From Roseateles toxinivorans (GTDB taxonomy: Bacteria > Pseudomonadota > Gammaproteobacteria > Burkholderiales > Burkholderiaceae_C), in NCBI GenBank assembly GCA_945898095.1, contig CAMDHE010000034.1:1-38747 (forward strand): a DNA stretch of 38,747 nucleotides, in the 5' to 3' direction. Shown piece after piece: positions 23,786 to 38,691 of this stretch. The stretch's first letter is position 1. Every line of letters starts with the position of its first letter. The notes beneath the pieces were generated by a model. That model saw only the letters and a program-made list of their open reading frames with translations, searched no databases and was not told the origin of the DNA. Position numbers and translations under genes: made by a program.

Positions 23786-24105
23786 ACGTCAATCACTACA
23801 CCTATCGGGTCACCTGGTCGGCCGAAGACAAGGAGCATGTCGGTCTTTGCACAGAATTCCCTTCGCTCTCGTGGCTGGCCCCTTCACCTGAAAAAGCCCT
23901 CTCCGGCATCCGGCAGGTGGTTGCGGATGTGGTTGACGAGTTGACAGCCTCCGGTGAACCAGTCCCTGAAGCGCTTGCGGAAAAGAAATACAGCGGCCGG
24001 TTCATGGTTCGAATTCCCTCTTCGGTGCACCGCAGTCTTGCCACCGAGGCGGCCGAACAAGGTGTGAGCATCAACCGACTGGTATCAGCCAAGCTGGCCG
24101 TGTAA
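23782..24105 (+). CDS. hicB: HicB-like antitoxin
   Basis: This 107-residue protein is the partner antitoxin: an N-terminal degenerate RNase-H-like HicB domain (YTYRVTWSAEDKEHVGLCTEFPSLSWLAPSPEKALSGI) and a C-terminal ribbon-helix-helix segment (GRFMVRIPSSVHRSLATEAAEQGVSINRLVSAKLA) that should bind the hicAB promoter. The GLC(T)EFP-S stretch is the family signature. Translation is coupled to hicA. The pair appears intact. Confidence 0.87.
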   Translation: MNVNHYTYRVTWSAEDKEHVGLCTEFPSLSWLAPSPEKALSGIRQVVADVVDELTASGEPVPEALAEKKYSGRFMVRIPSSVHRSLATEAAEQGVSINRLVSAKLAV

Positions 24106-24130
24106 TCGCGGGGCCTGGTTCCCGAACGCA

Positions 24131-24149
24131 AGGGTGAATCGCTCACCCT
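24131..24149. terminator. Hairpin between the convergent hicB and GNAT genes
   Basis: AGGGTGA-ATCGC-TCACCCT is a 7-bp perfect stem between two converging genes and includes the stop codon of the acetyltransferase. No T-run follows on either strand, so terminator function is only probable. Confidence 0.4.
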
Positions 24150-24661
24150 GATGCGCTGCCCACCAAAGCCTTGATGTCCTTCATCAAAAGGAACAGATGA
24201 AGCGGGTCAGATGGGCTGGGTTCAAACTCCCAATTCAGGTACCACTGCCTGGCCGGCTCATCCTTGGCATGCACCAGCAGCGCGCGAATGCCGGCAATGT
24301 CTGCAGCCTGTGCGGTGCGCAGCAGCGCGTCCTTGAGCAGCGCCTTGCCAAGCCCTGCGCCTTGGTGCTGAAGATCCACCGCAAGCCTGGCCAGAATCAT
24401 CACCGGAACCGGGTGTTGTGGAATGCCTTTGGTTATACGCGGCGCCGCCTTTGATGGCTCAAGGCTGCCAACGGCCAAGTTGTAGAAGCCAACAACCGAA
24501 CCGGTATGGCAGCTCACGTAAGTCTGCGCGCGGTTGGATTTTTGGTTGACCAGCGCGAAGCGCTGCAAGAACTGGTTCAGTGCGCTCTCGCCACAATCAA
24601 AGGACTCGACGGCGTCCGAACCGGTCAGTTTGCGAACTGGCTCGTAAGTCTGCGCACTCAT
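24143..24661 (-). CDS. TacT-like GNAT acetyltransferase toxin without antitoxin
   Basis: This 172-residue GNAT protein resembles the TacT/AtaT group of toxins, which acetylate the amino group of aminoacyl-tRNA and stop translation. Seen: VESFDCGESALNQFLQRFAL near the N-terminus, VMILARLAVDLQHQGAGLGKALLKDAL with the acetyl-CoA loop, and the C-terminal ARQWYLNWEFEPSPSDPLHLFLLMKDI with the catalytic Tyr. The start at 24661 is chosen because the open frame above it is not conserved. Members are normally preceded by a DUF1778 ribbon-helix-helix antitoxin; none is present. Instead the gene begins where a parE remnant breaks off, within a 16-bp perfect palindrome (24657-24672). Confidence 0.82.
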   Translation of the reverse strand: MSAQTYEPVRKLTGSDAVESFDCGESALNQFLQRFALVNQKSNRAQTYVSCHTGSVVGFYNLAVGSLEPSKAAPRITKGIPQHPVPVMILARLAVDLQHQGAGLGKALLKDALLRTAQAADIAGIRALLVHAKDEPARQWYLNWEFEPSPSDPLHLFLLMKDIKALVGSASG

Positions 24662-24851
24662 GCGCGCATGAGCGCAAGTCTTCAGACAGTTCGGGCCGCC
24701 GCCGATAGCCCGCAGGGTTAAGACAAATCCTTTCGCAATGCACACGCAACTCAGCCACGAAAGTTCCGGCGCGAACCGGATTGTCTTGTGCAATGTAGTG
24801 GCCGATCTACTCAAGATCGAACGCTGCCAAAGGCGTGATCAGCAACTGCAT
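24662..24851 (-). pseudogene. parE: parE toxin remnant, nonsense mutation and truncation
   Basis: Directly after parD (stop and start share one base, TAATG) the minus strand reads MQLLITPLAAFDLE, then an in-frame TAG (24807-24809), then IGHYIAQDNPVRAGTFVAEL and PAGYRRRPELSEDLRSCAH. This is the ordered ParE fold, with Glu15 (LEEI in relatives) changed to a stop. The family-typical ending (GRYVIFY and beyond) is missing because the sequence switches into the acetyltransferase gene. The toxin should be inactive. It is too short and interrupted to appear as a normal gene; it was found by translating the gap. Confidence 0.78.
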
Positions 24852-25117
24852 TAGCGAGTTTGGCGAGTTGCCTGCTGGGCGTATTTGGCTTGTAGTCGAT
24901 CAAACACGGGTTCCGCTGCAAGTGCTGCGCCGCTGGCCTTGCCTGCGGCGATATCATTTCTCAGCGCTTGGAGTTGGATGGCTTGCTGGCGCTCGGTGTC
25001 CTCGAGCAAGCGCAGTCCAGCACGGACGACTTCACTGACGTTGTTGTAGCGACCGCTTAGTATTTGATCGCGGATGAAGGTCTCAAAATGGGGGCTCAGG
25101 GCAACGCTGGTGGGCAT
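24851..25117 (-). CDS. parD: ParD-like type II antitoxin
   Basis: This 88-residue protein has the N-terminal ribbon-helix-helix of ParD antitoxins (MPTSVALSPHFETFIRDQILSGRYNNVSEVVRAGLRLLEDTE) and a disordered, alanine-rich toxin-binding tail. AGGAG stands six bases before its ATG. Its own toxin gene, parE, is broken immediately downstream, so ParD may persist as a regulator, an immunity factor against another ParE, or a decaying gene. A palindrome directly upstream is the likely autoregulatory operator. Confidence 0.9.
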   Translation of the reverse strand: MPTSVALSPHFETFIRDQILSGRYNNVSEVVRAGLRLLEDTERQQAIQLQALRNDIAAGKASGAALAAEPVFDRLQAKYAQQATRQTR

Positions 25118-25222: not shown

Positions 25223-26224
25223 TCACCGTGGCGGTGAAGAGACCCTGATCTCGTCGCGCCCCACGCGGATGTCCAACCCGAAGCCGGCGTGCAGAAGGCG
25301 CGCGAAGCCCTCGACGTTCGTGGCGTCGAAGGCCCCGCCGACCTGGATACGGGCGGCCGTCTCGTCGACGAGGAGTTGCCGGGTGCTGTAGCGGTTGAAC
25401 TCGAGGGCGACGTCGGCCAGGCTCGCCTGGTCGAAAATCAATTTGCCTTCAAGCCAACCCAACTCGTCGAGCAGTTGGCGGGCCGACCTTTTGCCAATGA
25501 CCACATGCTGGTCATTGGCCAGGGCGACATCGCCACGGGTCAGCAGGATGCGGCGGTTGCCGCGGTCTCTGTCCAGTTGCACCCGACCCTCCAGGACTGA
25601 CACCCGCAGGCCGTTCGGCTCGCGCCGGACGGAGAAGGTCGTCCCCAGCACCCTGACCCTCTGCGCGCCGACGATTACCTCGAACGGCCGCTTCGGGTCA
25701 TGGGTGATCTCGAAGTGGGCTTCGCCTTCGTCCAGCCAGACCGAGCGTAGCGTGGGCGTGATGGCGGTGCGCAGGCGCGTGGCAGTGTTCAGCGTGACCC
25801 TGGAGCCGTCGGCCAGGGCCAGCGGCGTCCGGCCGCCACGCTCCGTGACGAAGACCTCTTCGGTGAGTCCGGAATTCGCAGGCATGGCCGTTTCCCTCAC
25901 CCACAGGCCCGCACCGACGAACAGTATCAGCAGCATGGGAACGGCGGCGAGACCGCGCCAGGAAGGCCGGATCTGCGACACCCAGTTGCGCAGCCGGGCG
26001 AACTGCACGGGCGGTCTGGCCAAGGGGCGCAGGGCCTGCATCCGATCGGCGCGCCGCCATACGGCATCGAGGCGCAGATAGGCGACCCGGTGCGCCGTTG
26101 CGGCATCGAGCCAAGCCCCGAGCGCCGCCTCGCGCTGCGCGGTCCATGATCCGTCCTGCAGGCGACGGTCACGCTCGGCGATCCAGTCGGCGGCCCGGAT
26201 CTCGATGACCTGCCAGTCGCTCAC
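25223..26224 (-). CDS. fecR: FecR-type anti-sigma factor/signal transducer
   Basis: This 333-residue protein is a cell-surface-signalling anti-sigma factor. It has a cytoplasmic N-terminal domain (AADWIAERDRRLQDGSWTAQREAALGAWL) that binds the sigma factor, one membrane segment (WRGLAAVPMLLILFVGAGLWV, about residues 88-108), the periplasmic FecR domain (LADGSRVTLNTATRLR to VSVLEGRVQL) and a C-terminal domain expected to contact the TonB receptor's signalling domain. The start is a GTG that overlaps the sigma factor's TGA (GTGA). It forms a two-gene operon with the sigma factor. Confidence 0.93.
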   Translation of the reverse strand: MSDWQVIEIRAADWIAERDRRLQDGSWTAQREAALGAWLDAATAHRVAYLRLDAVWRRADRMQALRPLARPPVQFARLRNWVSQIRPSWRGLAAVPMLLILFVGAGLWVRETAMPANSGLTEEVFVTERGGRTPLALADGSRVTLNTATRLRTAITPTLRSVWLDEGEAHFEITHDPKRPFEVIVGAQRVRVLGTTFSVRREPNGLRVSVLEGRVQLDRDRGNRRILLTRGDVALANDQHVVIGKRSARQLLDELGWLEGKLIFDQASLADVALEFNRYSTRQLLVDETAARIQVGGAFDATNVEGFARLLHAGFGLDIRVGRDEIRVSSPPR

Positions 26225-26808
26225 GTGCCCCCCTTTCCGTTTTGCTGTGTCGATGATCGACCCTGCCGCGCCGCATCGCCCTCGGCCATCGGGCTACCAC
26301 CTTTCAGCAGCGCCTGAGCCAGCGACCGGATGCCCTTGGCTACCTGTTTCTGCACCGTGTCCTCGGCGATCCCCAGCCGCGAGGCCACCTCGCGCTGCGA
26401 CAGCCCCTCGATTTTTCGGAGTTCCACGACCTCGCGGCAGCGGTGGGGCAGCAGGTCCAGCGCCACTTGCAGCAGCCGCAGTTCGCTACGACCGCTGAGA
26501 TGCCGCTCGGGGCTCAGTTCGTCTACCGTGAAACTCATGGTCTCGATGTCAGCAAAGGTCTCGATGGCGACGACCTGGGCGCGCCGGACACGATCGATCA
26601 GCAGGTTGCGCGCCGTGGACAGGACAAAGGCCTGGGCTGAATTGGGCCGGCAGACGGCGCAGCTCTCGTACACGCGAGCGTAGACCTCCTGCCGCAGGTC
26701 CGGGATTTCGTCGGCGTCCCGCCAGTTGCGTCGCAGGTAGCGCTCCAGCATGCCTTCCAGCGGCAGCACCTCATCGAGGAACCACGCGTTCAGCTCATCT
26801 AGGATCAA
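26221..26808 (-). CDS. fecI: FecI-type ECF sigma factor
   Basis: This 195-residue sigma factor has region 2 (MLERYLRRNWRDADEIPDLRQEVYARVYE, with FVLSTARNLLIDRVRR for -10 melting) and region 4 (LPHRCREVVELRKIEGLSQREVASRLGIAEDTVQKQVAKGI). The start is TTG at 26808, supported by AGGAGG four bases upstream. Together with FecR and the divergent TonB-dependent transducer it makes a complete surface-signalling circuit. The same TACCG-N17-CGTCTAAA motif stands before its own gene and before the receptor, so it probably activates itself as well as the uptake operon, unlike the classical Fur-controlled fecIR. Confidence 0.93.
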   Translation of the reverse strand: MILDELNAWFLDEVLPLEGMLERYLRRNWRDADEIPDLRQEVYARVYESCAVCRPNSAQAFVLSTARNLLIDRVRRAQVVAIETFADIETMSFTVDELSPERHLSGRSELRLLQVALDLLPHRCREVVELRKIEGLSQREVASRLGIAEDTVQKQVAKGIRSLAQALLKGGSPMAEGDAARQGRSSTQQNGKGGT

Positions 26809-26831
26809 TCTGCCTCCTGTGTCCTTTTCAG

Positions 26832-26861
26832 TTTAGACGAACGAGCCGCGCGGATACGGTA
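26832..26861 (-). promoter_or_regulatory. Putative ECF promoter of fecI
   Basis: On the minus strand TACCG (26861-26857) and CGTCTAAA (26839-26832) are separated by 17 bases, ending 23 bases upstream of the fecI TTG. The same words at the same spacing precede the divergent receptor gene. Confidence 0.6.
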
Positions 26862-26909
26862 CGCGAGCGACAAACCGCCGGTGGTTGATCAGCACAAACC
26901 CTGAGCCAT

Positions 26910-26939
26910 ACCGGAAACCCGTTCGGCCTTCGTCTAAAT
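26910..26939 (+). promoter_or_regulatory. Putative ECF promoter of the TonB-receptor operon
   Basis: TACCG (26910-26914) and CGTCTAAA (26932-26939) are separated by exactly 17 bases, 38 bases before the receptor ATG. It matches the fecI-side motif in both boxes and in spacing, and the CGT-type -10 is normal for ECF sigma factors. No Fur-box-like palindrome was noticed. Confidence 0.6.
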
Positions 26940-26977
26940 GAATTGAGAAACGTCAACACATCCGGAGGTCATCGACC

Positions 26978-29428
26978 ATGAATGCAAAGAATCTCATCAA
27001 GCGCATGCTCCGCCAGGGCACTTACGGCTTGTGCGCCTTCGTGCTCTGCGCGGGCGCCTGGGCGCAATCCCGCAATTTCGACATTCCAGCCGGGGAGATG
27101 AAGGCCGCACTGGACGCTTATGCGGCCCAGTCGGGGGTCCAGATCGTCTACAGGATCGAGGATCTCCGCGGGCTCGTCACGCCCGGCCTGAAGCGCGCCA
27201 TGGCCCCCGAGGAAGCGCTGCAGGCGCTGCTCCTGGGCAGTTCGCTGTCGGTGCAGCGCGACAGTTCCGGCGCTGTGGTGATCTTCAGTCCTTCCGGGCG
27301 GCCGCGCAGCGAGGAGGGGACGAACCAGTTGAAGGCCGTCGTGGTGACGGCCAACCGCAGGCGCGAGCCGGCCCAGGAGGTGCCGATGCAGGTCGGGGTG
27401 CTGTCGCCCGAGAGCCTCAGCCGCTCCGGCGCCAGGTCACTGAAGGACTACATCTCGCGTGAGCCGGGCGTCGACCTCAACAGTTGGGGCGGTGCCGGCA
27501 TCGGGTCCATTTCGATCCGCGGCATCACGACCGGCAACGACACCTCGGCCACGGTCGGGGTGTACGTGGATGACATGGCCATGGGTTCGAGCGTCCCCTT
27601 TCTGAACGGGGCAATCCGTGCGCTGGACCTTGGTCTGCTCGACCTGCGCCAGATCGAACTGCTGCGGGGGCCGCAGGGCACCTTGTACGGCGCGAGCGCG
27701 ATGGGTGGCGTACTCAAGTACGTCACCAACGATCCCGACACCTACGAGCTCTCTGGCAAGGTCCAGGTGGGCGCCTCGGCGACGCGCCATGGCGGCCCCG
27801 GCTCGACGATGGCCGGTGTCATCAACGTGCCACTCAGCAAGGACGTAGCCGGCCTGCGCGTCTCGGTGTTCAAGGATCGGACCGGCGGGTTGATCGACAC
27901 GGTGGGCGGCGTCCAGGCGCGCGATATCGATTCCGGGCACACCAGCGGCCAGCGGGCCTCGTTGCTGCTGACCCCGAACAACAAGCTGCGTGTGCGGCTG
28001 ACCGCCACCGCGCAGGACATCCAGCGCGATGGCGTCGACTATGTCGACCATGTCGCCGGGACAGGCCAGCTCAAGGAGGGCGACCTGCAGCGCCGACTGC
28101 AGGTCCGCGAGCCCTACGAATCCAAGGTTGGGATCCTCTCTGCCGAGATCGAGGCCGATCTCGGCTGGGCCCGGCTGAACTCGGTCACGTCCAGCCAGCA
28201 GGTGCGCTCCAGCGTCAAGAGCGACTTCAGCTCGGCCTACGTCCCCTTGCTGGCGATGTTCGGCATCAACGTTCAGAGCGCGGCGGCGGATGTCCGCGTC
28301 GACGGCCGCAAGAAGACCCAGGAACTGCGGCTGACCTCGCCTGGCGGAAAGCAGTTCGACTGGCTGTTGGGCTATTACTACAACGACGAGCAGGGTACCA
28401 ACCTGCAGGGCGTGCCTACGACGGTGGCGGGCGGCGCGTCCGGCCCGAACCTGGCGACGGTGAGCCTGGCCAGCCATTACCTCGAACAAGCGGTCTTTGG
28501 CAACGCAACCTGGAAATTCTCCGAGCGACTCTCGGTGACCGGTGGTCTGCGCGTGGCGGCCAACCGTCAGCGCACCAGCGTGGACACCGATGGTCCGCTC
28601 GTGGGCGGCAAACAGGCCCTGGCCGACGATTCCAAGGACACCACCACCACCTACCTGCTGACGGGTCGCTATGTCCTGGCCCCGGGCCAGAGCGTCTATC
28701 TGCGCTCGGCTTCGGCCTACCGCCCGGGCGGCCCGAACCCGGTGCTGCGGGACCCGACGACGGGGCTGCCCGTTGCCCCCAACACCTATGCACCTGACAC
28801 CTTGGTGAGCAACGAGGCAGGCTACCGGGCCGACCTGCTTGACAAGACCCTGTCGGTCTCGGCGGCCTTGTTCGATATTCGGTGGAAGAACATCCAGCAG
28901 TACACGCCGGTCAACGGGGTCAACGTGATCGTCAGCGCGGGCCGCGCCCACCTTCAGGGCCTGGAGCTTTCGTCGGTCTGGCGCCCGGCGCGCGACTGGA
29001 CCTGGACCCTCGGCGGTGCGCTGACCGATGCGCGCCTGAGCGCCGATGCTGTTGGCCTGGATGCGTTATCCGGCTCCCGCCTGCCCAACAGCGCGCGGTT
29101 CTCCGCCTCGCTAGACATCCAGCATGACCTCAGCCTCTGGGGGCAAACGGCTTACCTCGGCTCGACGCTGCGCCATGTGGGCGAGCGAAATTCGGGCTTC
29201 ATCGCGAGTTCCAAGGTGCCGAGTCATCTGCTGCCCGCATATTCATTGATTGACCTGCGTGCAGGCCTCAGCCTGGCCAAGGTGAGCCTGGAGCTGTACC
29301 TGCGCAACCTGCTGGACGAGCGCGCCCAGCTTTCAGCCAGCACTTCCGTCAGCGCATTGGGGGGCCCGGTGTGGGTTTCGAATGCGCAACCGCGCACCTT
29401 CGGCGCCACGCTGACCGTTCCGTTCTGA
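26978..29428 (+). CDS. TonB-dependent transducer receptor with signalling domain
   Basis: This 816-residue outer-membrane receptor has a signal peptide (cleavage near AWA|QS), then an STN signalling domain (residues about 32-100: FDIPAGEMKAALDAYAAQSGVQIVYR) that should contact FecR, a TonB-box-like LKAVVVTANRRRE, a plug domain (VPMQVGVLSPESLSRSGARSLKDYISREPGVDL, then the SIRGI and LRGPQGTLYGASAMGGVLKYVT motifs) and a beta-barrel ending in a terminal Phe (ATLTVPF). It imports a large or scarce ligand through the outer membrane using TonB energy and signals its presence. The downstream peptidase genes point to a peptide or peptide-bearing ligand. GGAGG precedes the ATG. Confidence 0.95.
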   Translation: MNAKNLIKRMLRQGTYGLCAFVLCAGAWAQSRNFDIPAGEMKAALDAYAAQSGVQIVYRIEDLRGLVTPGLKRAMAPEEALQALLLGSSLSVQRDSSGAVVIFSPSGRPRSEEGTNQLKAVVVTANRRREPAQEVPMQVGVLSPESLSRSGARSLKDYISREPGVDLNSWGGAGIGSISIRGITTGNDTSATVGVYVDDMAMGSSVPFLNGAIRALDLGLLDLRQIELLRGPQGTLYGASAMGGVLKYVTNDPDTYELSGKVQVGASATRHGGPGSTMAGVINVPLSKDVAGLRVSVFKDRTGGLIDTVGGVQARDIDSGHTSGQRASLLLTPNNKLRVRLTATAQDIQRDGVDYVDHVAGTGQLKEGDLQRRLQVREPYESKVGILSAEIEADLGWARLNSVTSSQQVRSSVKSDFSSAYVPLLAMFGINVQSAAADVRVDGRKKTQELRLTSPGGKQFDWLLGYYYNDEQGTNLQGVPTTVAGGASGPNLATVSLASHYLEQAVFGNATWKFSERLSVTGGLRVAANRQRTSVDTDGPLVGGKQALADDSKDTTTTYLLTGRYVLAPGQSVYLRSASAYRPGGPNPVLRDPTTGLPVAPNTYAPDTLVSNEAGYRADLLDKTLSVSAALFDIRWKNIQQYTPVNGVNVIVSAGRAHLQGLELSSVWRPARDWTWTLGGALTDARLSADAVGLDALSGSRLPNSARFSASLDIQHDLSLWGQTAYLGSTLRHVGERNSGFIASSKVPSHLLPAYSLIDLRAGLSLAKVSLELYLRNLLDERAQLSASTSVSALGGPVWVSNAQPRTFGATLTVPF

Positions 29429-29443
29429 TCCGTCTGACCCCGC

Positions 29444-30847
29444 ATGACGATGCCCCAACACGAGCCGCTGGGGGAGCCTGGGAGGCACCGCCCCCGGGCG
29501 GCCTTGGCGGCCGCCTATGGACTTGGCGTCCTGGTCACTGCAGCTGTCTTTGCGGCGATGGATCGGCAGATTCTTGTGCTGCTGGCCGAACCAATGCGGC
29601 AGTCGCTCGGCCTCAGCGATACGCAGGTGGGGCTGCTGCAAGGACTGGGCGTCACCTTGTTTTCCGGCCTCGCGGCGGTTCCCGTCGGCTGGCTCGCCGA
29701 CCGGTACGGCCGCCGCCGGGTGCTGGCGCTTTGTGTTCTGGTCTGGACGGCAGCCACCGCGGCCTGCGGCCTGGCCCAGGACTTCGGCTCGCTCTTCCTG
29801 GCTGCGGTCGCGCTGGGCATCGGTGAAGCCGGCCTGACGCCCATCGTCTACGGGCTGATTCCGGACATCGTTTCCGACCGTCGCCGCGCCCTCGCCAACG
29901 GCATCTACACGCTGGCCGCGATCCTGGGTGCCGGGCTGGGCATCGCGCTCAGCGGCGCGCTGGTGGAGGGGCTTGGAACCCTGCGTGCGCTGATGCCGCC
30001 GGCCGCCAGTCAGCTGGAGTCCTGGCGCCTGGCCTTTCTCTGCGTCGCCGTGCCCGGGCCGGTGGTGGCCTTGATGATTCTCATGATCCGCGTGCGTCCG
30101 GCGCGCTCCGCCTCTTCGACCGTTGTCGCGTCGGGGCCCGAGCCGCGCGCCTGGCCCTACCTGAGCCAACATCGTCGTACCGTCGCGGGCATTTTCGGCG
30201 GTACCGGCTTGGCGGGCCTGGGGCTGGCGGCGGTGTCCAACTGGCTGCCGGTAGTCGCCTCTCGCAGTTACGGCGCCACCCCGGCAGAAGTCGGGCAGGG
30301 CATCGGGCTGGCCTACCTGGCAGGCACGGCGGTCGGCGCCGGTGGAGCGTTCTGGGCCGTCCGGCGTCTGGCGGTGCGCCATGGCCCGGCTACGCCGGTG
30401 CGCATCACGAGTTGGGGGCTGGTCATCGCGGCGGGCGTCTCCCTGTGCATGCCGGCCGCGTCGCAGCCGACACACCTGTACGCCCTTTTCGCCCTGCAGG
30501 TGGCCTCGCTCATCGCCGCCAGCGTGCTCGCGCCCACGATGCTTCAGGACATGACGCCGTCCGTGATCCGCTCCCGCCTCATCGCCGTCGGCGGCCTGGT
30601 GTCGGTTTCGATGGCGTCGATCAGCCCGCCCCTCGTCGGTCTGATGTCCGATTTCTGGGCCTCGACGCCGGCCAGCCTGCTCTGGTCGGTGTCCCTGGTC
30701 AGCGCGTTCGCGATGGCCGCCGGTGCCGCCCTGATGCGCACGGCCGAGGCGCCGTTCGTGCGCACGGTCGATGCCGTCCGCCTTGAAAACACCACCGCCG
30801 ATGTGGGCCCGTCCGGCGCCCCGGGCATGGCCAGGAGTGTCCCCTGA
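29444..30847 (+). CDS. MFS transporter
   Basis: This 467-residue inner-membrane protein has about twelve hydrophobic segments and the MFS signature GWLADRYGRRRVLALCVLVWT between segments 2 and 3. The beginning (AMDRQILVLLAEPMRQSLGLSDTQVGLLQG) is that of the spinster-like MFS branch. It starts 15 bases after the receptor and its stop overlaps the next gene by one base. In this context it probably carries the receptor's ligand, or a fragment of it, from periplasm to cytoplasm, the role MlrD is thought to play in microcystin degradation; export cannot be excluded. Confidence 0.92.
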   Translation: MTMPQHEPLGEPGRHRPRAALAAAYGLGVLVTAAVFAAMDRQILVLLAEPMRQSLGLSDTQVGLLQGLGVTLFSGLAAVPVGWLADRYGRRRVLALCVLVWTAATAACGLAQDFGSLFLAAVALGIGEAGLTPIVYGLIPDIVSDRRRALANGIYTLAAILGAGLGIALSGALVEGLGTLRALMPPAASQLESWRLAFLCVAVPGPVVALMILMIRVRPARSASSTVVASGPEPRAWPYLSQHRRTVAGIFGGTGLAGLGLAAVSNWLPVVASRSYGATPAEVGQGIGLAYLAGTAVGAGGAFWAVRRLAVRHGPATPVRITSWGLVIAAGVSLCMPAASQPTHLYALFALQVASLIAASVLAPTMLQDMTPSVIRSRLIAVGGLVSVSMASISPPLVGLMSDFWASTPASLLWSVSLVSAFAMAAGAALMRTAEAPFVRTVDAVRLENTTADVGPSGAPGMARSVP

Positions 30848-32550
30848 TGCGCCAGTCTGCTGCCCCGCCGTCCCTCGCCGTGCCGCCTGCCGAGGAATCG
30901 CTGGCTTACGTCTTGCGGGCCCTGTTCGAACCCGTCGACCGCCACGACGCCCCGGGCCTGATCGTCGGCGTGGCGCAGCGCGGCCGCATCCTGATGCGCC
31001 AGGGCTATGGTCTGGCCAGCGTCGCGCTCGGGGTGCCCAACACTTGCGCCACGCGCATGCATATCGGTTCGACCAGCAAGCACTTCACCTGCCTGGCGGC
31101 GCTGCTGCTGGCCGAGGAAGGCCGGCTGGAGATCGATGCGCCCGTCGGGCGCTACCTGCCCGAATGGCCGCAGGCTGTGACGCAGCCCACGCTGCGCCAG
31201 TTGATGACACACACCGCCGGGGTGCGCTGCCATATTGACCTGTTCCCGCTGGCCAGCGGCACTGCCATGCGCCCCGCGGGCGCCGTCATGCAAGCGCTGC
31301 TGCGCCAGTCGGCGCTGAACTTCGCCCCGGGCAGCGACTTTCTCTACAGCAACGGCGGCTACCAGCTGCTGTCGGAGGTGATCGCACGGGCCGCCGGAAT
31401 GCCCTTCGAGCAGGTGTTGCAGACCCGTATCTTTGCACCCATGGGCATGGACGAGACTGCGTCGATCCCCGACGACAACGTCTTGGTGCCCGGCCTCGCG
31501 GATCTGCATGTCCCCCAGCCGGACGGCGCTTACCGGCGGGGCTTCTTCCCCATCCCGGACTGCCGCGGCGAAGGCGCGATGGTGTCGACGGTGGACGACA
31601 TGCTGAAGTGGCTGGCCCACCTGCGGTCCCCTTCTCTCATTGGCAGCGCGCAGACCTGGCATCAGATGCTGCAGACGGCCTGCCTGGACAACGGCGAGAC
31701 GCTGCCCTACGCACTGGGCCTGATGCGCCACAGCTACCGCGGCGTCGAGGTCATCCACCACGCGGGCGGCGTCGTGGGCGGGACCTGCCAGATGCTGACC
31801 CTGCCCGCGCACGAACTGGACATCATCATGATCCTGAACGGGGCGCCGCTGAACCCGATGGAACTGGCCTGGCGCATCGTGGATCACCTGCTGGGCCCGC
31901 AGCACCTGCGCCCGGTGGTGCCGCGGCCCGACATGGCGCGTTTTCGGCCGCTGGCGGGCATGCGCTACCGGGACCCTGCCAGTGGTTTGGTGATCGAGTT
32001 CGCAGACCTGGATGGCCGGCTGGCGCTGAAGTCCTGGAACCTGATGCCGGTAGCCATGCATGACGACGGCGCCTTGCTGCGCGTGGGTGTGGAGGACATG
32101 CCCGAGAGCGGCATCGAGATCGCACTGGCCGACCTGCTGGCCGGGCAGGGAGCGCCGCTGGTGCTGCCCGTGGTACGGGGCGGCCGGCCGCTGCAGCTGC
32201 AACGTCTGCCCATCGAGCCGCCCGCCAACGCGAGCGCCGGGGCGGCGCTGGTGGGACGCTACCGCGCCAACGATCTGGCGGCCGATGTCCGCATCACGCT
32301 GCAGGGGCAGTCGCTGCAGATGACGCTCCAGGCCGACGCACCCGCCGTGCACTGCGTCCTCCAGGCCTGGGCGCCGGAGGTCTTCGGCCTGAGCGTGCCG
32401 GGCGTGCCCGAGGTGCCTCTGGGCGGTGTGCTCAGCGTGCAGCGCGAGGCGGGCGAGGTGGCGGGCCTGTACCTGGACACCTTCCGCAGCCGACGGCTGT
32501 GGCTCGAGCGGCTGCCGCCTGACGGCGGCGTGACGCGCATCGCGCCATGA
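30847..32550 (+). CDS. Serine hydrolase of the beta-lactamase/D-aminopeptidase class (S12)
   Basis: This 567-residue protein is a penicillin-binding-protein-fold serine hydrolase. Active-site motifs are seen: Ser75-T-S-Lys78 (SxxK), Tyr167-S-N (YxN) and His305-A-G in place of KTG. It has no signal peptide, so it acts in the cytoplasm, which argues against a true beta-lactamase. The catalytic domain (about 1-360) is followed by about 200 residues of beta-rich sequence, with GRYRANDLAADV and a final AGLYLDTFRSRRLWLERL. This three-part layout and the HxG triad resemble D-aminopeptidase DAP of family S12, which removes N-terminal D-residues; MlrB is a shorter relative in the same superfamily. It overlaps its neighbours at both ends. 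Confidence 0.9.
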   Translation: MRQSAAPPSLAVPPAEESLAYVLRALFEPVDRHDAPGLIVGVAQRGRILMRQGYGLASVALGVPNTCATRMHIGSTSKHFTCLAALLLAEEGRLEIDAPVGRYLPEWPQAVTQPTLRQLMTHTAGVRCHIDLFPLASGTAMRPAGAVMQALLRQSALNFAPGSDFLYSNGGYQLLSEVIARAAGMPFEQVLQTRIFAPMGMDETASIPDDNVLVPGLADLHVPQPDGAYRRGFFPIPDCRGEGAMVSTVDDMLKWLAHLRSPSLIGSAQTWHQMLQTACLDNGETLPYALGLMRHSYRGVEVIHHAGGVVGGTCQMLTLPAHELDIIMILNGAPLNPMELAWRIVDHLLGPQHLRPVVPRPDMARFRPLAGMRYRDPASGLVIEFADLDGRLALKSWNLMPVAMHDDGALLRVGVEDMPESGIEIALADLLAGQGAPLVLPVVRGGRPLQLQRLPIEPPANASAGAALVGRYRANDLAADVRITLQGQSLQMTLQADAPAVHCVLQAWAPEVFGLSVPGVPEVPLGGVLSVQREAGEVAGLYLDTFRSRRLWLERLPPDGGVTRIAP

Positions 32551-34043
32551 AGTTCTTCATCGCCGAGCTCGCCTGCGAGACCAACACCTTCTCGGCCTTG
32601 CCCACGGGCATGTCGAGCTTCGAGCAGCAGGGTCTGTACCGGGGCGACGGCAGCCGCCGCGCGCCGGACGGCGTCGGGGCCTACCTGCACTGCATGCGCG
32701 GCCTGATGGAGGCCGACGGGCACGACGTGGTGGAGAGCCTGTGCGCCTTTGCCGAGCCCGGGGGGCGCGTCGCCGGGGCCGTCTACGAGACGCTGCGCGA
32801 CCGCATCCTGGAAGACCTGCGCGCGGCGATGCCGGTGGACGCGGTGCAGCTCCTGCTGCACGGCGCCATGGTGGCCGAGGGGCACGACGACTGCGAGGGC
32901 GAACTGCTCACCGCCGCCCGGGCCCTCGTCGGCCCCGGGGTCGCGGTCGGCGTGGTGCTGGACCTGCACTGCCACTTCACGCCCGCGATGCAGGCCGGCG
33001 CCGATGTGTGCATCGCCTTCAAGGAATATCCGCACACCGACATCGACGACTGCTCGCGCGAGCTCTACCGCCTGCTGCTGGACACCGCCGCCGGCCGCGT
33101 GCGCCCCACCACCGCCGTCCGCGACTGCGCCATGGTGGGCCTGTGGCACACCACGCGCGAGCCGATGCGCGGCTTCGTGCAGCGCATGAAGGCGCTGGAG
33201 GGTCGCGACGGCGTGCTGTCGGTGTCGCTGGGCCACGGCTTCCCCTGGGGCGACGTGGCCGGGGCTGGGGCGAAGGTCTGGGTGGTGACCGACGGCGACC
33301 TCGGCCGCGCCCAGGTGCTGGCCGACCGCCTGGCGGCCGAGTTCTGGGGGCTGCGCGAGCAGACCCGGGCGCCGGTGGTGGGCATCGACGAGGCGCTCGA
33401 GCAGGCCGCCCGCTGCGCTGGCGGGCCGGTCGTGCTCGCCGACGTGGCCGACAACCCCGGGGCGGGCGCCTCGGGGGACAGCACCTTCATTTTGCGCCGC
33501 CTCGTTGACCGGCCCGTGGGCCCTACGATCGTCGGCGCCTTCTGGGACCTGGGCGCGGTGCGCATCTGCGCCGACGCCGGAGTGGGCAGCGTGATCGACC
33601 TGCGCGTCGGGGGCAAGTGCGGGCCCCACTCGGGCGACCCGGTCGACCTGCGGGTGACCGTGCGCGCCGTTGTCGACGACCACTCGCAGGTCATGCTCGG
33701 CGCGCGTTGCAGCCTGGGCCGCAGCGTCTGGGTGGAGGCCGCCCACGGGCTGCATCTCGTCTTGGTCTCCGTACGCAGCCAGGTCTGCGGCACGGATGCG
33801 TTCACCGGGCTGGGCATGACCCTGCACGACAAGCGGCTGCTGGTCGTGAAGTCGATGCAACACTTCCACACCGCCTTCGCGCCGATCGCGACGGCGGTCC
33901 TGTACGTCTCCACGCCCGGCGCCGTCACGCCGGACTTCGCCGCCATCGACTACCGCGTCCGCTCGCTCGACTACTGGCCCCGCGTCGAGCGTCCCTGCGC
34001 CGCGCCGGCCGAGCCCGACCCCGCCGTCGAGGCGGCGCCATGA
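32547..34043 (+). CDS. M81-family metallopeptidase (MlrC-like)
   Basis: This 498-residue enzyme belongs to peptidase family M81, whose founding member MlrC (microcystinase C) cleaves linear microcystin products in the cytoplasm. Family marks are AELACETNTFS at the N-terminus, VQLLLHGAMVAEG, the metal-binding VVLDLHCHFTP (Asp139, His141) followed by EYPHTD (His163), GHGFPWGDV, and ADVADNPGAGASGDSTFILR. There is no signal peptide. Most M81 proteins are uncharacterised, so the actual substrate may be another peptide or amide. It is translationally coupled to the serine hydrolase and the epimerase (ATGA overlaps). Confidence 0.92.
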   Translation: MKFFIAELACETNTFSALPTGMSSFEQQGLYRGDGSRRAPDGVGAYLHCMRGLMEADGHDVVESLCAFAEPGGRVAGAVYETLRDRILEDLRAAMPVDAVQLLLHGAMVAEGHDDCEGELLTAARALVGPGVAVGVVLDLHCHFTPAMQAGADVCIAFKEYPHTDIDDCSRELYRLLLDTAAGRVRPTTAVRDCAMVGLWHTTREPMRGFVQRMKALEGRDGVLSVSLGHGFPWGDVAGAGAKVWVVTDGDLGRAQVLADRLAAEFWGLREQTRAPVVGIDEALEQAARCAGGPVVLADVADNPGAGASGDSTFILRRLVDRPVGPTIVGAFWDLGAVRICADAGVGSVIDLRVGGKCGPHSGDPVDLRVTVRAVVDDHSQVMLGARCSLGRSVWVEAAHGLHLVLVSVRSQVCGTDAFTGLGMTLHDKRLLVVKSMQHFHTAFAPIATAVLYVSTPGAVTPDFAAIDYRVRSLDYWPRVERPCAAPAEPDPAVEAAP

Positions 34044-35026
34044 GCCTGAGCTGCCAGGTGAGCACCGAGCGCTGGCCGCTGATCGAGCCGCTGGAGATCT
34101 CGCGGGGCGTACTCACGCATCTCGACACAATGCTGGTGGAACTCTCCGACGGCGCGGCATGCGTCGGGCGCGGCGAAGCAGCCGGCGTGTCCTACGACGG
34201 CGAGACGACGGCCTCGATGGGGGCTCAGATCGACGCCATCCGGCCCCTGCTGCACCCGGACCTTGCCTTCGCCGACTTGGCGCGATGGCTGCCCCCGGGC
34301 GGGGCGCGCAACGCGCTGGACTGTGCGCTGTGGGATCTGCGCTCCCGGCAGGCGGGGCTTCGCGCCTGGCAATGGGCCGGATTGGGCGGGGTGGAGCCGG
34401 TCACCACCGCCTACACCATAGGCCTCGGGTCCGAAGCCGATGTGCGGCGCTGGATCCGGGCAGCTCGCCACCTGCCGGTGTTGAAACTCAAGGCCGATGC
34501 ACATCGTCACCTGGATACGGTGAGGATGGCGCGCGAGGAACACCCGACTGCTCGGCTGGTGATCGACGCCAACCAGGCCTGGACCCGGGGCCTGCTGGAA
34601 CGTCTGATCCCTCCGCTACATGCCGCGGGGGTCGAATTGATCGAGCAGCCACTGCCTCGCGGCGACGATGCGCAACTCGACGGCCTGCGCTCGCCGATCC
34701 CGCTGGCCGCCGACGAGTCTTGCACCGACGCCGCCTCGCTGCCTGCGCTGGTGGGCCGCTACCAGGTCGTCAACATCAAGCTCGACAAGTGCGGCGGCCT
34801 CACCGAGGCCCTGGCGATGGCCGGGCGCGCGCAGGCGCTGGGGCTGGACCTCATGGTCGGCAGCATGGGCGGCACCTCGCTGGCCATGGCGCCCGCCTTT
34901 CTGCTGGCGCAGCGCTGCCGGTTCGTAGACCTTGACTCGCCGCTGCTGCTGGCGAGCGACCGCCCGCATGCCATGGTGTACGACGGCGCGCAGGTGCCGC
35001 TGCCGCCGGCCGGCCTTTGGGGTTGA
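34040..35026 (+). CDS. Dipeptide epimerase (enolase superfamily)
   Basis: This 328-residue enzyme is of the muconate-lactonising subgroup of the enolase superfamily and most resembles L-Ala-D/L-Glu-type dipeptide epimerases, which invert the C-terminal residue of a dipeptide. Seen: capping-domain start, the catalytic KxK (LKLKAD, Lys149 and Lys151), metal ligands Asp176 (VIDANQAW), Glu202 (LIEQPLP) and Asp225 (LAADES), and the second base lysine in NIKLDKCGGLTEAL. The C-terminal MVGSMGGTSLAMAPAF substitutes for the specificity loop. The ATG at 34040 overlaps the M81 stop; the open frame above it is a shadow. As last gene of the operon it would let D-residues released by the peptidases enter ordinary L-amino-acid metabolism. 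Confidence 0.92.
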   Translation: MSLSCQVSTERWPLIEPLEISRGVLTHLDTMLVELSDGAACVGRGEAAGVSYDGETTASMGAQIDAIRPLLHPDLAFADLARWLPPGGARNALDCALWDLRSRQAGLRAWQWAGLGGVEPVTTAYTIGLGSEADVRRWIRAARHLPVLKLKADAHRHLDTVRMAREEHPTARLVIDANQAWTRGLLERLIPPLHAAGVELIEQPLPRGDDAQLDGLRSPIPLAADESCTDAASLPALVGRYQVVNIKLDKCGGLTEALAMAGRAQALGLDLMVGSMGGTSLAMAPAFLLAQRCRFVDLDSPLLLASDRPHAMVYDGAQVPLPPAGLWG

Positions 35027-35293: not shown

Positions 35294-35557
35294 TCACTTA
35301 CGGGTGCGTTTGTAAGCGCGCAGGTCACTTGCCGAAAACATTTGGTTGCGGCCGACGGTGTGGCTGGGTTGCAGTTTTCCCGCTTGGACATGGCGACGCA
35401 AAGTTGGCAGCGATACCTCCAAATACTCAGCGGCCTCCCAAGCCGACAGAGGCTCCCGCGCCAAATGTCCAAATACCTGCTCGTGGCTGAAATCATCGTC
35501 ACGAAATGCGTTGAGGCTCAGCAGTGAGAAAAATTTAACACGCTCAGTCGCAGGCAT
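35294..35557 (-). CDS. Small excisionase/MerR-type helix-turn-helix protein
   Basis: This 87-residue protein has an N-terminal segment (MPATERVKFFSLLSLNAFRDDDFSHEQVFGHL) and a C-terminal winged helix-turn-helix of the excisionase/MerR kind (PLSAWEAAEYLEVSLPTLRRHVQAGKLQPSHTVGRNQMFSASDLRAYKR). It should bind DNA. Such proteins are used as phage or island excision factors and as antitoxin-like regulators; no integrase or toxin is adjacent. The frame is open a little further upstream without an ATG, so the start is fairly sure. It stands alone with its own terminator. Confidence 0.8.
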   Translation of the reverse strand: MPATERVKFFSLLSLNAFRDDDFSHEQVFGHLAREPLSAWEAAEYLEVSLPTLRRHVQAGKLQPSHTVGRNQMFSASDLRAYKRTRK

Positions 35558-35880
35558 GCGCCCTTTCGACCCAAAGCGAACGGTCGCGACGCTGCCTTGG
35601 GCGGCGGTGATGCAGCGATAGCCGCCAGCTGCGAGCGCACTGTGAACTCACGCTTTGCGCCTGGAAGCAGTCATCCAAAATATGAGAGATCTCGCGGACC
35701 CGTTGACTGACTGGAGGGGTACAGCGGGCATTGGGGGCTGCCGCTGCTGTGCAGCGCGTCCACTGCCCCGACTTCGGAAAGATGCTATCTACACGAGAGT
35801 GCCGACAGAAATCGAGAAACGTCGAACCGGGAGCTAAAAACTGCCAAGAGACGCGAGTGAAGCCAAAAAACCAAATCAAA
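35558..35880. other. 323-base gap with no supported gene
   Basis: The stretch between the HTH gene and the LuxR gene (both on the minus strand) holds only short frames without recognisable motifs. It must contain the promoter of the HTH gene; no clear promoter, hairpin terminator or RNA gene was recognised. Confidence 0.4.
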
Positions 35881-38691
35881 TCAAAGTAAGGCCAGTTTCC
35901 GGGCACGCGCTACTGCAGCAGTTCGGCTCTTTACATCCAGCTTTCCGTAGATATTGTGCAGATGCCACTTCACAGTCGCTTCACTCAAAAAAAGTTCCTT
36001 GGCGATTTGTTCGTTGGACATCCCAAGTTCAATCAGTGCTACCACGCGTCGCTCCTTTTTCGTAAAAACCTTTTTCTCAGTCTTGGTATCAGAGGCATCG
36101 ACTTGAACCTCGTTGCGACCAGATCTATTTCGTGCGACCAGATCAAGTAGAGCCGTCTCAATATGACCGCCTGCTTCCGCATGCTCCTTTTGAAGACTCT
36201 GGCTCCGGTGATCTCGCACGAACATCAACAAGGGCAGCAAATCCGGACACATTTGATACAGATAGTAGAGGCTACCGCCTTCTTTGATGAAGTCGAAGGA
36301 TCGGTCCAACTCCCTTGCCGCCTCCATGTGCTTTCCATCCTTCCACAAAGCGAGCGCCTTGAGGGCATGCATACCTATCAAGTCGCGGAGCCAGGGTGAC
36401 GCGGAACCAGAACCTCTTTGCAGATTGCGCAAACCGTTGTGAGACTCTTTTGTTCGATTCTCAGCCAGTAACATGCGGATTTCCAGCAACTTGACCAATT
36501 GATCCGAGTCGCGATCTGCCGTACCTGGCCTGCCCGTTAGCCCGTGCCTTCCAATCGCGATCGAAGCGCCCTTCGGGTCACCGTTGTTCAGACGCAAGGC
36601 TATCTCTTCCAGAGCCAACTTGTTGTGCAACCTAGGCTTTTGCACCTTCAATGCGAGATCTTGCCCCTGTAGGATGGTTCGCATCGCGCCCTCTGCATCG
36701 CCAGCCCACTCCAGAGCTCTGGCCTGCCCTCGAATGGCCAGGAACATAGGTTCTACTGCCCCAAAGGAGTCGGGGAAAGACTTGCCCCTTTCAGCCAAAC
36801 GCGCAGCGCGATCGAAGTCCCCAATGTGTGAGGCAATCTCAGCTTCGAGCAAGTTGGAGAGATCGTTGAGATACTGCACAGGTGCGCCTTTTGCACACTT
36901 TTCAAGCCGCTCACTTTGCTCCTTGGCCGATGCAAACCTTCCAAGTTCAAGTTCCGCCAGCCCAAGAAGAAAACATGCCCAACCGGTGGCGTACTCCGAT
37001 TCGGCACGTTGCCCTTGCAGTTGGGCGTTCGAGGCTGAGGTGGCACAGGCTGCGAACTCGCGTCTTGCGAAATAGCAGTAAGCCATGCAGTTTCCAATTG
37101 AAGCGTGCAGGAACGCATCGTCTTCCGGTATCTCAGGCATCAGTGCCAAGCTGTTCTTCAAACTTTCTTCAAGCTGATCCGACGCCGCATCGACAACCGC
37201 CAACGTTACCCGCGCGACTTGGTTCCAACGCATGCGTTCTACGGCGTTCAGTTGCAATGGGTTGACACTTTGGTCGGCAATCAGGGCTATAGCCTGGCGC
37301 GCCAGCGTTCGTGCTTCCAAATCGCGTCGGGAAAATGCCAGAGACCATGCATGACTCAACAAAATCTCTGGACGACTATTCTGATGCTGCGCAGGCAGGC
37401 GTCTCATCCACTCAAGGATGGTGAAATGGTCGCCCTTCTTTTGAGAGAGTTCTAGCGCATGCGTGGCGATCAGTCCAGTGGCTCGCGAGTAGTCTCCACC
37501 GTCGAGTGCGTACTGAATGGCCTCGGTGGTTTTGCCATTTTTCTCACACCATTGGGCGGCAAGTTCACAGGTCCTGTTATAGCGATCTCGATCGATTCTT
37601 TGGAGTTCTGACTGAAGAAATTCACCGAACAAGTGGTGATATCGGTACCAGATGCCGTTTCTGTCCAATGGAACGAGGAACAGTTTGCTTCGATCGATGT
37701 TCTCCAAAGTAATCTGGCTGTCGAAGCCCTCGATCACCACATGGCACAGATCAGCGCACATCCTCCGCAATGGAGACGTAAACAGAAGAAAGGTTTTAAT
37801 TTCCGGGGGCAAATGTCTGAACACGCAATCCAATAGGTAGCGCGCCAGATCTTTGTCTCGCCCTGAAAAGCTGTCGATGAGTTCGCGCGCTGGACCCCTG
37901 TGGTTTTGCAAGGCAAGTGCGGCGAGCTGCAAACCAGCCATCCAACCTTCTGTGGTTGAGCCCAGTGCTGCCAGGTCGCTGACGTTCAAATCAAGTCGGT
38001 GAACTTGCTTCATGAGTGCCGCGACGCTAGTAGGGTCTAGGTTGAGGGCCTCTTGTTCAATCTCTTCCAGCAATCCAGAGACCTTGAGCCGGGAGAACTC
38101 CAGGGGTGGCGATGTCCTGCTGGCGATCACCAGCCTGAAGGTGGCAGGGATGTGTGCGATGAAGCGGTCGATGAACGTCAGCAGATCCGGATGAGTAATG
38201 TGCTGAAAATCATCGAAAAATAGGGTGCAAGAATGGGGCAGCGCCGATATTTTCCCCATCAATCGATCGAACAATGACCCCATGTCAAGATTGGGATTTC
38301 CACGCAACTGAGCCAGTTCGCTTTCCGCCAACTCTGGGTCAAACGACTGGAGCGCATAGATAAAGTAGGCGGCAAACAGGGAGGGATTGTTGTCTTCTGC
38401 GTCCAGGCTCAACCAACACGCATGATCCTCTTGACGCACTACAGCGTCACATAGCTCAGCCAAAAGCGTCGACTTTCCAGAACCTACAGCGGCAACCACG
38501 GACAGCAATTTTTTGGGTCTGCCGTCAGCAAGAAAGTTCTTGACCAAGGGCAGGCGCGAAATATTCTTGGTCGTATCAAAACCGGGCGGAAGAACCTTCG
38601 TCGCGATCAGGCTTTCAGGAACAGCAAGGGTGGCAAAGTTTTGCAAGCTCAATTCCATGTGATGTGTAAGATGTGGCGCTGCGCTGGCCAT
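35881..38691 (-). CDS. MalT-like LuxR-family ATP-dependent regulator
   Basis: This 936-residue protein is a large STAND-class regulator of the MalT/AcoK/LAL type. An N-terminal NTPase holds Walker A (VVAAVGSGKSTLLAEL, Lys73) and Walker B (CTLFFDDFQHI), followed by ITLENIDRSKLFLVPLDRNGIWYRYHHLFGEFL, typical of this family, about 450 residues of helical TPR-like repeats for inducer binding, and a C-terminal LuxR helix-turn-helix (FTKKERRVVALIELGMSNEQIAKELFLSEATVKWHLHNIYGKLDVKSRTAAVARA). It should activate transcription after binding an inducer and ATP. The start is uncertain between ATG 38691 and ATG 38658. AT-richer than its left neighbours; targets are unknown and may lie beyond the window's right end. 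Confidence 0.9.
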   Translation of the reverse strand: MASAAPHLTHHMELSLQNFATLAVPESLIATKVLPPGFDTTKNISRLPLVKNFLADGRPKKLLSVVAAVGSGKSTLLAELCDAVVRQEDHACWLSLDAEDNNPSLFAAYFIYALQSFDPELAESELAQLRGNPNLDMGSLFDRLMGKISALPHSCTLFFDDFQHITHPDLLTFIDRFIAHIPATFRLVIASRTSPPLEFSRLKVSGLLEEIEQEALNLDPTSVAALMKQVHRLDLNVSDLAALGSTTEGWMAGLQLAALALQNHRGPARELIDSFSGRDKDLARYLLDCVFRHLPPEIKTFLLFTSPLRRMCADLCHVVIEGFDSQITLENIDRSKLFLVPLDRNGIWYRYHHLFGEFLQSELQRIDRDRYNRTCELAAQWCEKNGKTTEAIQYALDGGDYSRATGLIATHALELSQKKGDHFTILEWMRRLPAQHQNSRPEILLSHAWSLAFSRRDLEARTLARQAIALIADQSVNPLQLNAVERMRWNQVARVTLAVVDAASDQLEESLKNSLALMPEIPEDDAFLHASIGNCMAYCYFARREFAACATSASNAQLQGQRAESEYATGWACFLLGLAELELGRFASAKEQSERLEKCAKGAPVQYLNDLSNLLEAEIASHIGDFDRAARLAERGKSFPDSFGAVEPMFLAIRGQARALEWAGDAEGAMRTILQGQDLALKVQKPRLHNKLALEEIALRLNNGDPKGASIAIGRHGLTGRPGTADRDSDQLVKLLEIRMLLAENRTKESHNGLRNLQRGSGSASPWLRDLIGMHALKALALWKDGKHMEAARELDRSFDFIKEGGSLYYLYQMCPDLLPLLMFVRDHRSQSLQKEHAEAGGHIETALLDLVARNRSGRNEVQVDASDTKTEKKVFTKKERRVVALIELGMSNEQIAKELFLSEATVKWHLHNIYGKLDVKSRTAAVARARKLALL

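Follow-up and report, generated by a model that had tools for sequence, protein, structure and literature searches.

A recurring Burkholderiales gene cluster with FecIR-type regulators and a TonB-dependent receptor, probably for the use of D-residue peptides

Peptides that contain D-residues, such as non-ribosomal antibiotics, cyanobacterial toxins and peptides, and cell-wall fragments, withstand ordinary proteases. To our knowledge, the way in which Gram-negative bacteria import and use them is poorly described. The stretch analysed here, CAMDHE010000034.1 (referred to as the window), is contig 34 in full length, 38747 bases, from a genome of 4.7 Mb and 209 contigs. It contains a seven-gene locus that, judged from sequence, is likely to be one copy of a locus type that recurs across genomes, FecIR-controlled and TonB-fed, and that serves the use of D-residue peptides. 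These peptides would probably be non-ribosomal peptides or fragments of them.

Several described systems resemble parts of this locus. In the Fec system, surface signalling runs through FecI, FecR, and FecA. The window shares with it an extracytoplasmic function (ECF) sigma factor, an anti-sigma factor, a receptor with a putative STN extension, and a predicted ECF-type motif common to both promoters; it differs in that the receptor operon encodes catabolic enzymes where the Fec system has an iron ABC carrier, and no Fur box was found. Polysaccharide utilisation loci (SusC-type loci and the Xanthomonas CUT loci) similarly combine a TonB receptor, an inner-membrane carrier, hydrolases, and local sensing, with several copies per genome, whereas the enzymes of the present module belong to peptidase families and are found with racemases. 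The mlr cluster of microcystin-degrading sphingomonads (MlrA, MlrB, MlrC, and MlrD) also has an S12 hydrolase, an M81 peptidase, and an inner-membrane carrier, to which the window operon adds a TonB receptor, FecIR, and a racemase. MlrC cleaves Adda-Glu (PMC4810221, in excerpt) and MlrA belongs to the CPBP protease family (PMC6914704, in excerpt). Lastly, the DgcN-DgcA route converts D-Glu, a cell-wall residue, to L-Glu (PMC10845958, in excerpt). The window racemase is nearest to DgcA, and a DgcN-like gene adjoins the racemase in several module loci; the window racemase, however, has no DgcN neighbour and its gene sits in a peptide-hydrolase operon. The locus would belong to a known kind, the TonB-fed utilisation locus with FecIR sensing. 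No description of the gene set as a pathway was found in the literature searched, which covered few subscription journals.

Gene content and recurrence of the locus

All seven genes that had been predicted at 25223-35026 were found there from open reading frame (ORF) positions and Pfam matches. They are listed below with two promoter motifs.

25223-26224, minus strand: FecR-type anti-sigma/sensor protein (Pfam FecR, 74.8 bits, cut-off 24)
26221-26808, minus strand: FecI-type ECF sigma factor with a putative TTG start (Sigma70_r2 and r4_2 over cut-off; overlaps fecR)
26834-26859, minus strand: predicted ECF-type promoter motif CCGTAT-N14-CGTCTA upstream of fecI (TTCGTCTAAA at 26832-26841)
26911-26936, plus strand: predicted ECF-type promoter motif CCGGAA-N14-CGTCTA upstream of the receptor gene (TTCGTCTAAA at 26929-26938)
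26978-29428, plus strand: TonB-dependent receptor with an N-terminal STN-like signalling extension (Plug and TonB barrel over cut-offs)
29444-30847, plus strand: major facilitator superfamily (MFS) inner-membrane carrier (Pfam MFS_1, 130.7 bits)
30847-32550, plus strand: S12 (penicillin-recognising fold) hydrolase, D-aminopeptidase/MlrB-like (Pfam Beta-lactamase, 205.6)
32547-34043, plus strand: M81 metallopeptidase (Pfam DUF1485, PF07364, 291.2; MlrC_C, PF07171, 171.7)
34040-35026, plus strand: DgcA-like N-acyl-amino-acid racemase/dipeptide epimerase of the enolase superfamily (MR_MLE_N, MR_MLE_C)

Pfam cut-offs were exceeded for FecR, sigma-70 regions 2 and 4, Plug, the barrel, MFS_1, Beta-lactamase, DUF1485, MlrC_C, and MR_MLE_N/C. 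The FecI protein scored 77.9 bits with TIGR02937 (cut-off 42.9) and 44.9 bits with the FecI model PRK09651, below its cut-off of 185. Together, the ECF sigma factor and FecR genes adjoin the receptor gene in a FecIRA-type arrangement. The genes are as tightly coupled as had been claimed: 15 bases separate the receptor and MFS genes, the later genes overlap by 1, 4, and 4 bases, and fecI and fecR overlap by 4. N-termini were judged by hydropathy, a simpler measure than a signal-peptide predictor. On this measure the S12, M81, and racemase proteins have no export-signal-like N-terminus (highest 12-residue hydropathy means of 1.27, 0.86, and 1.16), in line with the lack of signal peptides noted previously, while the N-terminus of the receptor is export-signal-like (2.12).

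The original prediction was to be refuted if neighbourhood comparison showed that the receptor and the enzymes rarely occur together. Instead, their co-occurrence was found to be strong, both around 27 S12 places in related genomes and in a wider scan, in which 69 of 72 loci have the receptor or M81. In the first survey, 150 genomes of the family including the window's own were searched (E <= 1e-40 for S12, M81, and racemase; E <= 1e-90 for the receptor). S12 was found in 16 genomes, M81 in 41, the racemase in 9, and the receptor in 11, and two other genomes of the window's genus within this set had no match to any of the four. Places with an S12 score of at least 380 bits, a threshold chosen by the analyst, were termed strong (27 places in 19 clusters and 10 genomes). 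Within 12 kb of these, M81 was present at 26 of 27, the receptor at 24, and the racemase at 13, compared to 0.52, 0.33, and 0.21 expected by random placement. The 10 weak S12 places that served as controls had no M81, no receptor, and one racemase nearby. M81 places were entered into this test solely from genomes that also have S12, and at most 9 S12, 10 M81, 14 racemase, and 6 receptor candidates were scored per genome, so that some copies may be missed. A chance gene neighbourhood was rejected on these counts.

The 72 loci came from a scan with an S12 alignment of one genome per species across 84,980 species, based on the best 80 of 99 stretches. They are not mutually independent, as several come from the same genome and two (L094 and L118) overlap on one contig, and they derive partly from the same genomes as the 27 strong S12 places. 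Genes were labelled with the analyst's ORF caller and BLASTP to reference proteins, with Pfam and NCBIfam used for selected proteins; 24 loci are shorter than 21 kb, the shortest being 3818 bases. The receptor was labelled in 61 loci, M81 in 62, and MFS in 58; receptor and M81 are both present in 54 and at least one of them in 69. More than one S12 was found in 34. The loci belong mostly to Burkholderiales, with genera including Pandoraea, Burkholderia, and Variovorax. Outside this order, one locus each was found in, among others, Pseudomonas guariconensis, Rudaea, Stenotrophobium, Stagnimonas, and a Caulobacteraceae genome.

All seven genes occur in the same order in the first two entries of the scan, L073 (S12 80% identical) and L074 (62%). 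Both are metagenome-assembled genomes whose isolate names start with Loclat and Loc, which we take to denote a lake. The L074 receptor and MFS proteins are 91% and 89% identical to those of the window, yet its S12 is only 62% identical; in L073, S12 is 80% and the receptor 72% identical. This mosaic relatedness looks as if the S12 gene had been exchanged. A variant cluster in Variovorax paradoxus contains, by public annotation, a receptor, a dipeptide epimerase, a beta-lactamase family protein, an MFS carrier, M81, an aminotransferase, RidA, and a flavin adenine dinucleotide (FAD) oxidoreductase, then TonB, ExbB, ExbD, and ExbD; the opposite strand carries a TetR gene. On another plasmid of the same strain, S12 is found with S9, an FAD oxidoreductase, a membrane dipeptidase, RidA, and a porin, but with neither a TonB receptor nor M81 within the stretch viewed.

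Further copies in the window genome were identified by BLASTP label on contigs 6, 22, and 45 (L054, L056, and L061). The orders seen were receptor-MFS-S12-S12-S12-like-M81, M81-racemase-S12b-MFS-MFS-S12-S15-S15, and a DgcN-racemase pair. In total, nine M81 matches at E <= 1e-40 were found in this genome. In the window itself, HicB-like, GNAT, and ParD-like genes (23782-25117) adjoin fecR and may belong to toxin-antitoxin pairs or be what is left of them. The region that directly follows the operon, 35294-38691, encodes on the minus strand a small HTH_17 protein and a MalT-like LuxR regulator (278 bits, below the cut-off of 537).

Regulation and sensing

The sequence TTCGTCTAAA occurs exactly twice in the window, compared to 0.00 expected by shuffling. 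The two copies lie one in each direction inside the 169-base gap between fecI and the receptor gene. When the whole window was searched on both strands with CCGKAW-N14-CGTCWW, the same two sites only were recovered. The two promoters thus share a predicted ECF-type motif, as in FecIRA-type systems. Of the 29 fecI genes examined, the window included, 10 have this motif upstream; L076 and L091 repeat the records L038 and L042. Of 30 receptor genes or fragments close to a fecI, 6 have it, and the match precedes a fragment in L053 and in L111, which is a second record of L053. The spacer was always 14 bases in a search that permitted 13-18.

The STN match on the window receptor has an E-value of 2.4e-6 and 27.7 bits compared to the Pfam cut-off of 28.4. 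The domain scores over the cut-off in the receptor of L038 (32.1 bits), a locus with fecIR, and not in those of L044 and L066, where no fecIR is labelled. Across the 72 loci, at least 95 residues precede the plug in 17 of 17 receptors located within 6 kb of fecI or fecR, compared to 20 of 39 others. The 95-residue threshold was set by the analyst, and the Fisher value of 1.8e-4 is not a clean probability because the receptor sequences are related. The paired ECF-type motif and the N-terminal extensions support the earlier claim of surface sensing. By analogy with the Fec system, we infer that the signal would pass along a FecIR path. Other regulators are found among the 72 loci: XRE-cupin genes were labelled in 13, and an unlabelled group whose scanned member is a histidine kinase in 19. 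Second-ExbD-like genes were observed in 29.

FecIR regulators and STN receptors typically belong to iron uptake. Moreover, the nearest solved chain to the window receptor is FyuA (4EPA) and its best NCBIfam family is a TonB-siderophore subfamily, although below the cut-off. A peptidic-siderophore system, in which the receptor would import a ferric lipopeptide or peptide siderophore and the enzymes would break it and free the iron, could account for these features. However, no Fur box was found in the fecI/receptor gap, where the best match of 10 of 19 positions was equalled by 641 of 1000 shuffles. Neighbouring genes were also scanned, covering 102 of the 212 unlabelled genes near S12; these were drawn from the nearest 140, leaving out 14 that mostly repeat a group already present and the 24 furthest. 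No iron-uptake family is among the 25 listed of the 142 families found, though rarer ones may exist. In addition, hydrolases, racemases, and oxidoreductases would exceed the needs of iron release. The siderophore explanation is regarded as improbable, and these results make a Fur-controlled siderophore system less likely.

Hydrolases, carrier, and racemase

The S12 protein (567 aa) contains the motif residues S75-x-x-K78, Y167-x-N169, and H305-x-G307, which are invariant across 17 aligned sequences. Among the solved-structure matches listed, the best chain is 1EI5, the D-aminopeptidase DAP of Ochrobactrum. The window protein has the same S12 fold and motif and a near full-length match, with 143.7 bits for the DAP model NF009622 over residues 31-555 of 567, but it differs from DAP in falling below the equivalog cut-off of 443. 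MlrB has 541 aa with S77, K80, Y171, N173, and H307, and a signal peptide is predicted for it (PMC11070527, in excerpt). Compared by reported length and residues alone, the window S12 has the MlrB-type SxxK/YxN/HxG motif and a DAP-like length, and it lacks the hydrophobic N-terminus that a signal peptide would provide. No MlrB chain was found among the best 60 of 141 solved-structure matches. As a side observation, two to three full-length S12 paralogues of the module occur within a single locus in L038, L042, and L047, and S12b proteins with export-signal-like N-termini are found in the variants L046, L048, L064, L065, and L066. For the MFS carrier, the best NCBIfam match is 2A0114 (66.1 bits, below the cut-off of 395). 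PTR2 was matched by two carriers chosen by eye as POT-like, in L046 and L065, and by 2 of the 102 scanned neighbours.

The zinc ligands of M81 (E11, D139, H141, and H163) align with E39, D167, H169, and H191 of MlrC, and the solved chain 7YLQ is matched with 323.7 bits. MlrC residues N41, F96, D341, and S392 are retained as N13, F68, D311, and S362, and H133 and D332 are likewise shared. On the other hand, G42, Y31, A39, H439, T456, and D463 replace E70, W59, F67, Q468, S485, and R492 of MlrC. The protein is 38.5% identical to MlrC, was placed in another clade by FastTree, and scores 341 bits with the MlrC model NF041767 (cut-off 999). Identity with MlrC was rejected on score, residues, and tree; with six MlrC residues missing and a position in another clade, M81 was therefore not filed as MlrC.

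These comparisons bear on the idea that the locus is an mlr kind of microcystin operon with S12 as MlrB, M81 as MlrC, and the MFS carrier as MlrD. The similar length and active-site spacing of S12 and MlrB, the zinc ligands and six further residues that M81 has in common with MlrC, and the three module copies in Roseateles toxinivorans would fit it. Nevertheless, M81 lacks six substrate or catalytic residues of MlrC, the S12 has no export-signal-like N-terminus by hydropathy, and no MlrA-type CPBP protease (PF02517) was found by Pfam among the seven operon genes. The module is also found in Pandoraea, Burkholderia, and Variovorax, and a locus elsewhere in this genome, on contigs 64 and 206, has the greater similarity to MlrC. 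An mlr operon is thus very unlikely. The proposed analogy to MlrB and MlrC holds at the level of families, in S12 length and motif spacing and in the M81 zinc ligands, and does not extend to M81 being MlrC, as six linear-microcystin residues are absent.

The name dipeptide epimerase, given in the original prediction to the last gene, was corrected. Its product is nearest to DgcA (NF042940, 395 bits, just below the cut-off of 400) and scores 225.5 bits with the L-Ala-D/L-Glu epimerase model PRK15129, below the cut-off of 343. The best solved chains are 4GFI and the E. coli epimerase 1JPD. Residues K149, K151, D176, E202, D225, and K247 are invariant in 14 aligned sequences and presumably form the catalytic K-x-K, D, E, D, K set; as this set is common to the E. 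coli epimerase, it is not specific for DgcA. Racemase relatives in like loci pass the DgcA cut-off (L042, 422 bits; L040, 406) and adjoin DgcN-like proteins of 448 and 456 bits (DgcN cut-off 480). The one DgcN match of the window genome lies on contig 45, beside a racemase relative that is 62.5% identical. No match in 10 genomes passes the DgcN cut-off.

As the DgcN-DgcA route converts D-Glu, which occurs in the cell wall, and 1JPD is an L-Ala-D/L-Glu epimerase, the locus could serve to scavenge L-Ala-D-Glu-type muropeptides, either the cell's own or those of neighbours. However, small muropeptides should not need a TonB receptor, the 20 families that the MFS protein matches include no AmpG model, and no peptidoglycan-recycling family is among the 25 of 142 families listed from the neighbour scan, though here too rarer ones may exist. 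Wall peptides are therefore judged an unlikely substrate, slightly less so than a siderophore.

Genes for other partners were found in the 72 loci. The racemase was labelled in 37, an FAD oxidoreductase in 34, a D-serine-dehydratase/BhcC-like protein in 10, a DgcN-like protein in 8, and M55 in 4; M19, S9, S15, M32, and DUF885 proteins were also seen, as was a 4-hydroxyproline epimerase (447 bits, above the cut-off of 442). At least one of racemase, DgcN, FAD oxidoreductase, BhcC-like, M55, and proline racemase is present in 63 loci. This setting also bears on the suggestion that the enzymes inactivate peptide antibiotics, for defence and not for food, which would suit the membership of S12 in the beta-lactamase fold family. 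Since the enzymes look cytoplasmic and are placed behind an uptake receptor, and the partner genes in other loci look catabolic, defence is the least probable of the explanations considered.

Roseateles toxinivorans and the proposed use of D-residue peptides

Outside the window, the same genome has a second receptor-M81 locus on contig 64 (L060, from 6327 to the end) and contig 206 (L062). Contig 206 continues contig 64 via an interrupted ATPase gene, with no exact end overlap. The genes encode a receptor, an ECF sigma factor, M81, a C26 amidase, a solute-binding protein, two ABC ATPases, a thiolase, a CoA transferase, and a second M81. Their order matches that on contig 16 of R. toxinivorans (L145 and L146), with 70-95% protein identity. 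The first M81 scores 522 and 526 bits with the MlrC model, far below 999, but groups with MlrC (FastTree support 0.999; 48-50% identity). It keeps W59, E70, and Q468 of MlrC and differs at N41, F67, F96, S485, and R492. At about 80% identity it was found in just these two of 399 family genomes, the next being 48-49% identical, and the five other genomes in this set that belong to the window's genus gave no hit at E <= 1e-120. The R. toxinivorans block continues with an enoyl-CoA hydratase, MaoC, an acyl-CoA ligase, a class-III aminotransferase, an S58 peptidase, M55, an acyl-CoA dehydrogenase, and an Rce1-like protease:

L146, 12072-13034, on R. toxinivorans contig 16: CPBP-type membrane protease, Rce1-like (PF02517), close to the M81 that is sister to MlrC

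No match to the Rce1-like gene was found in the window genome, where the best hit for the aminotransferase has 35% identity. From its sequence relationships, the second locus offers a lead as a candidate for mlr-independent microcystin breakdown.

Paucibacter toxinivorans is now named R. toxinivorans. The genome of its type strain, DSM 16998 (record SNXS), is identical to the R. toxinivorans genome used here (G062) over 19104 bases. G062, listed in the family of the window genome, has three module copies (L038, L039, and L040). Strain 2C20 was obtained from DSMZ and is presumably DSM 16998. This strain has no mlr genes, yet was reported to degrade microcystins as well as anabaenopeptins and aerucyclamides (PMC8068134, in excerpt).

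From the gene content we infer a D-residue ligand, inward transport, and the following reactions. The TonB receptor would bind the peptide at the surface and its STN-like N-terminus would signal through FecR to FecI. FecI would then fire both facing ECF promoters, so that receptor, carrier, and enzymes rise together. The peptide would enter the periplasm by TonB-driven import and be moved into the cytoplasm by the MFS carrier, or by a POT peptide carrier in some variants. There, S12 may cleave next to D-amino acids and M81 other or isopeptide bonds, while D-Glu-type products, either N-acyl-D-Glu or X-D-Glu, may be racemised to L by the DgcA-like enzyme. The final steps could fall in other loci to M55, DgcN-like proteins, and FAD oxidoreductases, the last of these being annotated together with RidA in one case.

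Several observations weigh against this reading. FecI or FecR was labelled in just 21 of the 72 loci (both in 19), others having histidine kinase or XRE-cupin genes instead; FecIR sensing is therefore not general. The promoter motif was not found at 19 of the 29 fecI genes, L073 included. Scores also fall short of several family cut-offs: S12 reaches 144 of 443 bits as a D-aminopeptidase, M81 misses the MlrC cut-off, the racemase that of DgcA (395 of 400), and the receptor that of its siderophore subfamily. The same applies to partners, namely DgcN (448-456 of 480), BhcC-like (132 of 690), M55 as DppA (127 of 430), and the FAD oxidoreductase as D-amino acid dehydrogenase (141 of 383). FAD oxidoreductases do not necessarily use D-amino acids; when they are left out of the count, loci with a gene tied to D-residues or epimers fall from 63 to 48. 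There are 411 plasmid records with M81, and in 3 of the 40 listed it overlaps the gene of a TRAP carrier, so that its presence alone says little. In one of the three R. toxinivorans copies, the racemase gene is interrupted by two stops. Strain 2C20 also degrades linear and other peptides, such as leucine-enkephalin and oxytocin (PMC8068134, in excerpt), so that the breadth of R. toxinivorans need not rest on D-residue enzymes.

Overall, the recurring module stands and local sensing has support from sequence, while the racemase was renamed and the analogy to microcystin degradation is limited; utilisation of D-residue peptides is still the reading we hold to be likely. More tentatively, it is possible that D-peptide utilisation loci, TonB-fed and sensed locally, form a family in Burkholderiales that would parallel the polysaccharide utilisation loci, with paralogues tuned to different non-ribosomal peptides. 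The copies would then explain broad cyanobacterial-peptide degradation in R. toxinivorans and in the window organism, and the sister locus (contigs 64 and 206; contig 16 of R. toxinivorans), with its MlrC-sister M81 and, in R. toxinivorans, the Rce1-like protease and genes for CoA-dependent side-chain steps, would be an mlr-independent pathway for microcystin or nodularin. A conserved locus with its own sensor would provide a testable answer to how D-residue peptides are used and a genome marker for this ability, and it also points to specific candidate genes.

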